Source: Imbricaverruca yamaguchii
Taxonomy: Eukaryota > Arthropoda > Thecostraca > Neoverrucidae
Assembly (NCBI GenBank): GCA_034440575.1
Contig: JAOTOL010001499.1
Location: 982,001 to 1,046,000 of the forward strand
DNA: 64,000 nt
Direction of reading: 5' to 3'
Shown piece by piece: positions 27,601-46,170 of this stretch. The notes beneath the pieces are model-generated. The model did not search any database and was not told the origin of the DNA. It saw only the letters and a list, made by a program, of their open reading frames with translations. The position numbers and the translations under genes are program-made. Each line of letters opens with the position of its first letter. Positions within the stretch are counted from its first letter, which is position 1.

Positions 27601-30600
27601 ACTTTAGCATCTGATGTTCGCTGCGGCATTGGCTGTGACATAGGCCATGTACACTCCGTCGTATTTGTGTGATGTCTTGTGCTGCTAGATATGACTGATG
27701 TGGTTTCAGAACTCCTACGCGTGCACCACGGTATGTGCGCCATGTACTGCAGCAGCGCTCGGCAGCTGGCACAGGTGCAGTTGTCGTTGGCCGATAGCTA
27801 CAGGTGTTTTAAGGTTCCGCGTGACCTTCACTCGGAGCTGGGCTATGCGATGATGGCCGTGGTGAGAATTCGGCGACTGTGTGCTCACATATCGCGGCAA
27901 GCCGTGTTGGCACCGGGAGCGCAATTGCTCCGAGCTCGGGAGAGGAATGACCCCGTCCCGGAAGGGGACTGACCCAGTCCCGAGATGAGACTGACCCTGT
28001 GCCGGGAGAGGACTGACCCAGTCCCGAGATGAGACTGACCCCTGTGCCGGGAGAGGGCTGACCCAGTCCCGAGATGAGACTGACCCCTTGCCAGGAAGAG
28101 GGCTGATCCAGTCCCGAGATGAGACTGACCCCGGTGTCGGGAGAGGGCTGATCGGGTCTCGAGCTGGGACTGACCCCGTGCCGGGACTGAGTGGTTTCAG
28201 AGCGCGCTGGCCTGCTGGACGGCATCAGTCTGTACTCGAGAGGACGCGACTCGACCTACTCGTCCATGTCGGACAGCGGCAGACACTCGCCCACGTCCAC
28301 CCTCAGCTCCGTCAAGGTGATACCCGTACCGTCACCACCGATACCCGTACCTTCACCACCGATAAACAGTACCGTCACCACCGACAAACAGCACCGTCAC
28401 CACCGATACCCGTACCGTCACCACCGATACCCGCACCGTCACCACCGATACCCGTACCGTCACCACCGATACCCGCACCGTCACCACCGATAAACCGTCA
28501 CCGTCACCACCGATACCCGTACCGTCACCACCGATACCCGTACCGTCACCACCGATACCCGCACCATCACCACCGATACCAGTACCGTCACCACCGATAC
28601 CCGTACCGTCACCACCGATAAACAGAACCGTCACCACCGATACCCACACCATCACCACCGATACCCACACCGTCACCACCGATACCCGCACCGTCACCAC
28701 CGATACCCGTACCGTCACCACCGATACCCGAACCGTCACCACCGATACCCGACCGCACCACCACCATACCCGCACCGTCACCACCGATACCCGCACCGTC
28801 ACCACCGATACCCGCACCGTCACCACCGATACCCGCACCGTCACCACCGATACCCGCACCGTCACCACCGACCGCACCGTCACCACCGATAAACAGAACC
28901 GTCACCACCGATACCCGTACCGTCACCACCGATACCCGCACCGTCACCACCGATACCGCCATCGTCACCGATAAACAGAACCGTCACCACCGATACCCGC
29001 ACCGTCACCACCGATAAACAGAACCGTCACCACCGATACCCACACCGTCACCACCGATACCCACACCGTCACCACCGATACCCACACCGTCACCACCGAT
29101 ACCCGCACCGTCACCACCGATAAACAACACCGTCACCACCGATAAACAACACCGTCACCACCGATACCCGCACCGTCACCACCGATACCAGCACCATCAC
29201 CACCGATAAACAACACCGTCACCACCGATACCCGCACCGTCACCACCGATAAACAACACCGTCACCACCGATACCCGCACCGTCACCACCGATAAACAAC
29301 ACCGTCACCACCGATATCAGCACCGTCACCACCGATAAACAACACCGTCACCACCGATACCCGCACCGTCACCACCGATACCAGCACCGTCACCACCGAT
29401 ACCGGCACCGTCACCACCGATATCTGCACCGTCACCACCGATAAACAACACCATCACCACCGATATCTACACCGTCACCACCGATACTCACATTGTCACC
29501 ACCGATAAACAGTGAGTCACAATGCCGTACCATGCTGATTATCAGCCGTGGCATTTGGTGGCAGCATTATCGTCATACGACTTGTTCTAATGTTCAGAAA
29601 TATCCGACCTTAGCTATGCCCATTTCCCTCGAAAGAAATCAGATTAAATAGCACAGTCGCGAGGTTCAACTTATCCAACTTTTCATGTAGGGTTTGTGCA
29701 TTACTTTTCCTACTCGAAGTCGCCATGCAAGGTTAACAGCCAATGTAAGGGGAACGTGAGGAATGAACAACGTAGAGAGATGTTGAGAATGAGAAACAGA
29801 TTAGGCTGCGAAGGGTGAAAAATTACAAAGACAGCAAGGCAAGTAGACTTTTGGGAAGGGGAAAACATGGTCTTGCCTCGCATGGGGAAAGGCTGGGGAG
29901 GGGCTGGCGCCCGTCCTGCTGTCGCACTTCCGGCTTCATTACTGACACCATAGTTGATGCTGTGTGTGCTGCGGTTGATGACGTTCGTGCTGCAGTTGGT
30001 GTTATCCGCGTTCCAGAGCTCGAAGTTCTCAGCGTCATTAGACGCCGTCACGGGCCAGTCCAGGGCGGGTCAGCTGACCTTTTCTCTGCAGTACCAGACC
30101 AACGGCGAGCGGCAGATTGGAAAGCTGCACATCGTCGTTCAGGTTGGCGCCATCGGATTAGCATAACGTGTGGAAGAAATGCCGCTTTTCACCCATAATT
30201 TTCATGCACGCGCATTCAAACTGGGAGAGAGGCTGTCATGGTTGTGGTGTGCGTGGATTGTGTTTCACTTTCCTGCAATAAGTAGTATGCAAATGTCATC
30301 ATTGCTTGGATCATGGCAGTGTTCATAAGCGAATGTCACATAATCTGGTGCATTATTAATGGCAGCATGTCGGATGTACAAATACTCGGTGGAAGCGTTA
30401 CCTTGCCGCATCAGAATACGACCAAATGTTTGCTAGCCCGGCTCCGATCGGCGGTAGGGATCAATTATATCTCCCCTGTCCAATCACACGGTGAGTGTCA
30501 ATGGTACGGTGCAATGACCTTCATATCATACAGCACCTGAGCGAAGTGACCTTTCGATACATGCTATTTGATGTTCATTCCCCACTGCTACACATGGGCG

Positions 30601-45615: not shown

Positions 45616-46170
45616 TGCAGAGGAAGACGGTGTCGCAGTGGCACTGTCTCACCTGACGTGGAGGAGCATGGTGTCACAGTGGCACTGTCTCACCTGACGT
45701 GGAGGAGCACGGTGTCGCAGTCCTACCTGACGTGGAGGAGGACGGTGTCACAGTATCACAGTCTCACCTGATGCAGAGGAAGACGGTGTTACAGTATCAG
45801 TCTCACCTGACGTGGAGGAGGACGGTGTCGCAGTGACACTGTCTCACCTGACGCAGAGGAAGACGGTGTCGCAGCCTCACCTGACGTGGAGGAAGACGGT
45901 GTGACAGTATCACAGTCTTACCTGACGTGGAGAAAGACGGTGTCGCAGTGACACTGTCTCACCTGATGCAGAGGAAGACGGTGTCACAGTATCACAGTCT
46001 CACCTGACGTGGAGGAGGACGGTGTCACAGTCTCACCTGACGTGGAGGAGGACGGTGTCACAGTCTCACCTGACGTGGAGGAGGACGGTATCACAGTCTC
46101 ACCTGACGTGGAGGAGGACGGTGTCACAGTATCAGTCTTACATGACGTGGAGGAAGTTCAGTGTCCCAGC
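45616..46170. repeat. Array of the exon 9 coding end in the 3' UTR
   Basis: About fourteen 30-42 bp units begin at the stop codon. They repeat GAAGACGGTGTCGCAGTGGC and CTGTCTCACCTGA, the DNA for the last ten codons and the stop of exon 9, so the coding end is tandemly multiplied. Confidence 0.95.

Follow-up and report, generated by a model that had tools for sequence, protein, structure and literature searches.

Probable Mirage-Type Minisatellites at Coding-Exon Edges in a Barnacle Genome

Introduction

Why should a single gene carry a different private minisatellite at the edge of exon after exon? The question is raised by a synaptotagmin-family gene of the barnacle Imbricaverruca yamaguchii, which lies in the window analyzed here (by which we mean the whole stretch of 64,000 nucleotides). 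The initial annotation reported at least eight mutually unrelated arrays, with units of ~20–44 bp, abutting or nearly abutting the edges of exons 3, 6, 7, 8, and 9. It proposed that tandem duplication had repeatedly started at exon–intron junctions, and it knew of no established class of element with this behavior.

Such a class has in fact been described. Excerpts of two papers on amphioxus (PMC3087553, PMC3902484) describe "mirages," tandem repeats that lie across exon–intron boundaries, at donors as well as acceptors, in Adh3, the globin genes BflGb6 and BflGb9, TnC, and PGBD5. Their units measure 10–72 bp in Adh3 and ~150–160 bp in the globins, the AG/GT signals are kept in many copies, regular splicing is undisturbed, and array length is unstable between alleles or somatic cells. 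In the open-licence literature we found no report of mirages from a barnacle or any other arthropod, and excerpts of five barnacle genome papers (PMC8270832, PMC8917513, PMC9582164, PMC8416341, PMC11331182) make no mention of them.

Results

The synaptotagmin-family gene is on the plus strand and has nine coding exons of compatible phase, which splice to an open frame of 467 aa. An earlier 442-aa version (part of exon 4 missing; GC3 = 0.84 in its coding sequence) matches proteins of Pollicipes pollicipes (72%) and Amphibalanus amphitrite (70%), as well as Pfam C2 and synaptotagmin structures; a Pfam search of stop-masked translations in one plus-strand frame missed the C2 exons. All ten of the gene's minisatellites of at least 100 bp are placed by TRF within 40 bp of a coding-exon edge. 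They flank exons 1, 3, 6, 7, 8, and 9, with units of 19–45 bp, and at 11 of the 18 edges an array comes within 50 bp (in one case a weak 2.2-copy repeat). The arrays reported earlier are borne out by TRF and the gene by homology and the open frame, and exon 1 is added to the exons concerned. That they abut the edges is right for four arrays that straddle an edge and for one that begins 2 bp past a donor; the other five stop 11–40 bp away. The arrays do appear unrelated to each other, as 7 of 78 pairs of units reach a nominal P ≤ 0.05 where ~4 are expected.

Along the gene, exon 1 (21485–21671, with the start codon, placed by homology and phase) is followed 23 bp past its donor by a 39-bp array (21695–21817) in which we saw no exon-derived sequence, and exon 2 (24539–24658) is array-free at both edges. 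A 45-bp array without exon similarity (27937–28186) ends 14 bp upstream of exon 3 (28201–28316), and the array that begins 2 bp past the end of that exon (28319–29507) has ~56 copies of a 21-bp unit, for which the matches listed elsewhere in the genome are all at most 77% identical. The weak repeat (29952–29998; 21 bp × 2.2, TRF score 59) ends 18 bp before exon 4 (30017–30142), on its acceptor side. Exon 5 (32801–33001) has no array, and a 38-bp array (34086–34300), again without exon similarity, ends 15 bp upstream of exon 6 (34316–34468). From here on the arrays lie across edges as well as beside them. A 37-bp array across the exon 6 donor (34455–35406) repeats the exon end plus GTGGGT and keeps GT in 23 of 25 copies; inside it, 34614–34668 reproduces the end of exon 6 with its donor once more and at greater length (47 of 55 bases), possibly a re-seeding from the exon end. 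Across the donor of exon 7 (39720–39840) lies a 33-bp array (39834–40373; GT in 15/15 copies). Exon 8 (41499–41705) is preceded at 11 bp by a 27-bp array (41296–41487) with a weak likeness to the start of the exon (rank 1 of 28 edges, shuffle P = 0.07), and a 31-bp array lies across its donor (41702–42094; GT in 12/13 copies). A 19-bp array (44752–45402, its start moved by eye to 44697 in the tests of edge similarity, edge count, and unit placement) ends 40 bp upstream of exon 9 (45443–45615, with the stop codon). The last array, with units of 41/33 bp (45581–46156), spans the stop codon and keeps TGA in 15/15 copies; it contains no splice site, and we class it as no more than mirage-like.

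The minus strand of the window holds two more resolved genes. One encodes a painless-type TRP channel of three exons (69% to Amphibalanus; exon 3 at 50737–53190) and the other V-ATPase proteolipid c, with two exons resolved (best structure match E = 2e-57). TRP exon 1, with the start codon, occupies 55267–55430. A 10-bp array repeating GTGAGTG (55220–55252) lies 14 bp beyond its donor, and a 61-bp array spans the start codon (55413–56219). The unit of the latter includes CAG, A, and ATGTCGGCCGAGCTGCCG, with AG in 12 of the 16 copies called (some calls being loose), and the array may include an acceptor. Upstream of the acceptor of TRP exon 2 (54250–54397), a degenerate second copy of the acceptor stretch (GACCRGTTCGTTGTCCGRCAG) is apparently present by eye at 54397–54450, which could be a mirage in the making, with about two copies so far. 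In the V-ATPase gene, 78-bp units (61292–61763) lie across the acceptor of the last exon (61097–61304), with AG kept in 6/6 copies, and 76-bp units (63663–64000, reaching the window end) across that of an earlier exon (63515–63704), with AG kept in 4/4.

Several other features of the window were recorded in passing. A WAP-domain gene at 8980–9773 on the plus strand (matching Pollicipes at 73% across 54% of the query and Amphibalanus at 52% across 90%) was the sole addition above the cut-off when stop-masked translations of the 1–10 kb region were searched with Pfam. One array (8509–8963) ends 16 bp before its ATG, another (9801–9952) starts ~28 bp past its stop, and its coding frame contains a 27-bp × 2.1 repeat (9228–9283). 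In an unverified plus-strand gene with putative exon starts at 687 and 1311, minisatellites at 581–666 and 1205–1303 end 20 and 7 bp before the respective acceptors. By eye, 26027–27389 looks like the remnant of a Penelope-type retroelement with inverted arms ~80%–83% alike. A dispersed repeat of 1 kb is present at 30667–31651 and 56396–57377 (79% identical), and TRF lists no array within either copy.

Seven arrays of the window straddle an edge: three at synaptotagmin donors (exons 6, 7, and 8), one at the stop codon of that gene, one at the start codon of the TRP gene, and two at V-ATPase acceptors. Each starts 4–42 bp inside the exon and repeats the exon end together with its signal. The initial annotation had suggested aligning array units with the adjacent exon ends; when units were compared with all 28 coding edges, 7/7 straddling arrays ranked their own edge first. 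Since the units contain an exon end with its donor, acceptor, start, or stop, they were likely made from the exon. The likely direction is exon to array, because the exon ends concerned encode residues common to other barnacles or to V-ATPase c. Among nine near but non-straddling arrays of the window, none showed similarity to the gap or the exon at P < 0.05, and none contained degenerate exon or acceptor copies at that level. Weak hints (rank 1 of 28) were seen at the acceptors of exons 8 and 9 and at the TRP donor, and the shuffle test was not passed where it was run. We also asked whether copies degenerate steadily the farther they lie from the exon, and rejected the idea, as the trend was nominally significant in just two of six arrays.

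Is the placement beyond chance? Using the three homologue-supported genes (28 coding edges and 20 arrays in the region 20.4–64 kb), 14/20 arrays start or end no more than 50 bp from a coding edge, compared to 1.51 expected (P = 5e-12) under random placement with a coding overlap of at most 42 bp, and 0 of 5,943 circular shifts reach 14. The non-straddling arrays also crowd the edges, with 7/13 within 50 bp against 0.52 expected. Within the window, then, the claim that placement exceeds chance stands. The result depends on the choice of null. When distance was taken to the whole array and shifted arrays were free to swallow exons, a cruder null, the count of near arrays (50 bp or less from an edge) was matched by 2–3 of 4,000 shifts and that of near edges (50 bp or less from an array) by 45–56 of 4,000; the number of edges inside an array was not significant (603–985 of 4,000).

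A wider sample was drawn from the same 767-Mb assembly. Of 135 protein-kinase matches, 39 partial ones were used, in 34 loci (L017–L062) covering 193 kb, to which tblastn added 12 of 13 further exon matches (the thirteenth, in L031, lies on the opposite strand and was excluded). This yields 84 approximate exon edges (45 donors and 39 acceptors), some of them misplaced, since they were set from the ends of HMM or BLAST matches and AG/GT rules. Arrays straddle 11/84 edges, in 10/34 loci, where 3.97 are expected if an array may overlap an exon by at most 60 bp (3 of 5,000 placements reach 11). In all 11 cases the array units match their own edge strictly first among 81–84 edges, and the own edge beats every edge of the other loci. 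Together with the seven window arrays, this upholds the proposal that duplication occurred repeatedly and independently at exon edges. For three near, non-straddling kinase arrays the own edge ranked 48th, 2nd, and 42nd. Proximity of array boundaries is weak in these loci, with 7 within 25 bp versus 2.79 expected (81/5,000) and 10 within 50 bp versus 5.59 (171/5,000).

In bulk, the kinase loci look different. Minisatellites are abundant there (77 arrays in 193 kb, 17.1% of bases; L036 and L040 have single arrays of more than 2–3 kb), and many sit far from exons. Coverage does not rise near exons, being 12.5%–14.3% within 200 bp and 17.3%–20.0% farther away (first 64 edges), and 13.1% of kinase edges lie inside arrays, compared to 18.2% of non-exonic bases. 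For myosin, 0/10 edges had an array (5 of 71 matches fetched, with flanks of ~350 bp). These coverage, edge-occupancy, and myosin results indicate that exon edges as a whole do not attract arrays. Exact targeting of edges therefore fails as a general rule; enrichment at kinase edges holds for straddling and not for bulk coverage. Within the open frames of 17 kinase loci, the period is a multiple of three in 9/11 arrays, an outcome that conditioning on an open frame favors. An array lies within 50 bp of 11/18 synaptotagmin edges and 11/64 of the first kinase edges (Fisher P = 0.0005), a comparison to be read with the fact that the synaptotagmin gene was chosen for its striking look. The edge excess is genuine but moderate, and the synaptotagmin gene is extreme.

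Discussion

The explanation that we consider likely is that these are mirage-type minisatellites, formed by frequent duplication in place and tolerated where the copies fall in an intron or a UTR, with births that are probably more numerous at GC-rich exons. An array would begin with the tandem duplication of an exon end and its signal, and unequal exchange or slippage would likely enlarge it. Extra copies lying within the intron or UTR would be spliced out or left untranslated, and the authentic outermost site is predicted to remain the one used; the frame predicted on this basis is open and conserved. Of the duplications wholly within an exon, it is likely that just those preserving the reading frame would escape purging, which would leave exon-derived arrays at exon edges. 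GC-rich exons and the ~100 bp around them may be hot spots of break repair or recombination; at ten array-free splice flanks, GC content is 0.64–0.72 in the first 20 bp, 0.58–0.59 to 60 bp, 0.535 to 100 bp, and 0.42–0.46 beyond. The GC3 of 0.84 in the 442-aa synaptotagmin version also fits such hot spots. Arrays that stop 11–40 bp short of an edge, with no clear exon sequence, may be products of the same process on the intron side. A trigger specific to splice junctions, where the initial annotation placed the duplications, is unlikely because stop and start codons are straddled too. Duplication triggered by the spliceosome was set aside for that reason and because kinase donors (6/45) and acceptors (5/39) are struck alike.

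Is any hot spot needed? If duplications arose uniformly and those inside exons were simply purged by selection, edges would mark nothing more than the limit of tolerance. The abundance of minisatellites in the kinase loci, their flat coverage toward exons, and the fact that kinase edges lie in arrays no oftener than non-exonic bases all fit such a scheme. However, placing a single unit of each array at random, and purging it if it falls inside an exon, predicts 2.79 straddled kinase edges against the 11 found (1/4,000; 8 versus 2.43, or 5/4,000, without three doubtful arrays), and 0.61 in the window against the seven found (0/4,000). That the non-straddling window arrays hug the edges as they do counts against the scheme as well. 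Edges are over-represented only relative to where a new duplicated unit falls under uniform births, and this excess suggests exon-centered hot spots of breakage or recombination; we regard uniform birth with selection alone as rather unlikely. An origin that looks instead to intron history, in which the arrays derive from short ancestral introns and stayed beside the exons while later transposon insertions stretched the interiors, is improbable. The ~100-bp GC-rich halo at the ten array-free flanks could be old intron, and the interiors do contain repeats, such as that at 30667–31651 with its second copy at 56396–57377. Yet those copies, which at 79% identity are probably not young, carry no TRF array, many kinase-locus arrays are far from exons, and nothing in the model itself predicts exon sequence in the units.

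The retained signals invite another thought, that repeated splice sites are selected as regulatory decoys or alternative sites. GT, AG, or TGA is intact in nearly every copy, and in the exon 8 array U1 pairing is better for 7 of the 11 extra copies than for the authentic donor. Against this, many other core columns of the units are equally conserved and no column pattern requires such selection, U1 pairing of most copies in the exon 6, exon 7, and TRP arrays is slightly weaker than that of the authentic donor, and one array with a conserved signal, at the stop codon, has no splice site. In addition, the periods of 5/7 straddling arrays are not multiples of three, so that splicing at the next copy would put the reading frame out of register. 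Selection of this kind seems to us very improbable. Hardly credible at all is a mobile element inserting at exon edges, or an assembly artefact. Copy numbers of the long arrays may be misassembled, and we found nothing else in favor of either. The units are mutually unrelated and contain exon sequence; the 21-bp array, among the matches listed, finds at most 77% identity elsewhere in the genome; assemblers are blind to exon edges; and the pattern is seen again in 10/34 kinase loci.

Duplication in place thus remains our preferred reading, and it has a bolder form that we offer as a tentative possibility: exons may themselves be a birthplace of minisatellites. Breaks at GC-rich exons would copy exon ends into introns and UTRs at 3–11 times the rate of uniform birth, the exon ends would serve as lasting templates from which decaying arrays are seeded anew, and the spliceosome would be confronted with dozens of splice sites, all intact.

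Judged by unit position and retained signals in the sequence of one assembly, the barnacle arrays can be assigned to the amphioxus mirage class. Units cross the exon–intron boundary at five splice edges of the window (three donors and two acceptors) and at 11/84 kinase edges, and they keep GT or AG in the counts given above, as do the boundary-spanning units at donors and acceptors in the amphioxus excerpts. Straddling is not confined to splice boundaries, owing to the stop-codon array. Mirages as those excerpts present them belong to single genes of a chordate, whereas here they occur in an arthropod, at most edges of one gene and at the 11 kinase edges; here a stop and a start codon are also straddled, and the excess over chance has been estimated. 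There is a further likeness to intron gain by tandem genomic duplication (AGGT duplication, the Rogers model), as cited in the excerpted PMC3087553, in which a segment with splice sites is also duplicated in tandem and the copies are treated as intron; in the barnacle, existing introns are lengthened at their ends and no new intron is shown. With ordinary minisatellites the arrays share their private character, units of 10–100 bp, and fairly similar copies (by TRF), but their straddling units come from exon ends and, in the synaptotagmin gene, they cluster at exon edges.

Mirages have so far apparently been an amphioxus curiosity, known gene by gene; in this crustacean they are frequent enough to count. 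For annotation this carries a warning, as a donor-like site in such a genome is often a copy of the real one. For biology, the abundance makes several matters testable: where minisatellites are born, how the spliceosome singles out one donor that has two dozen nearly identical copies beside it, and whether these copies contribute to the lengthening of introns and the origin of new ones.
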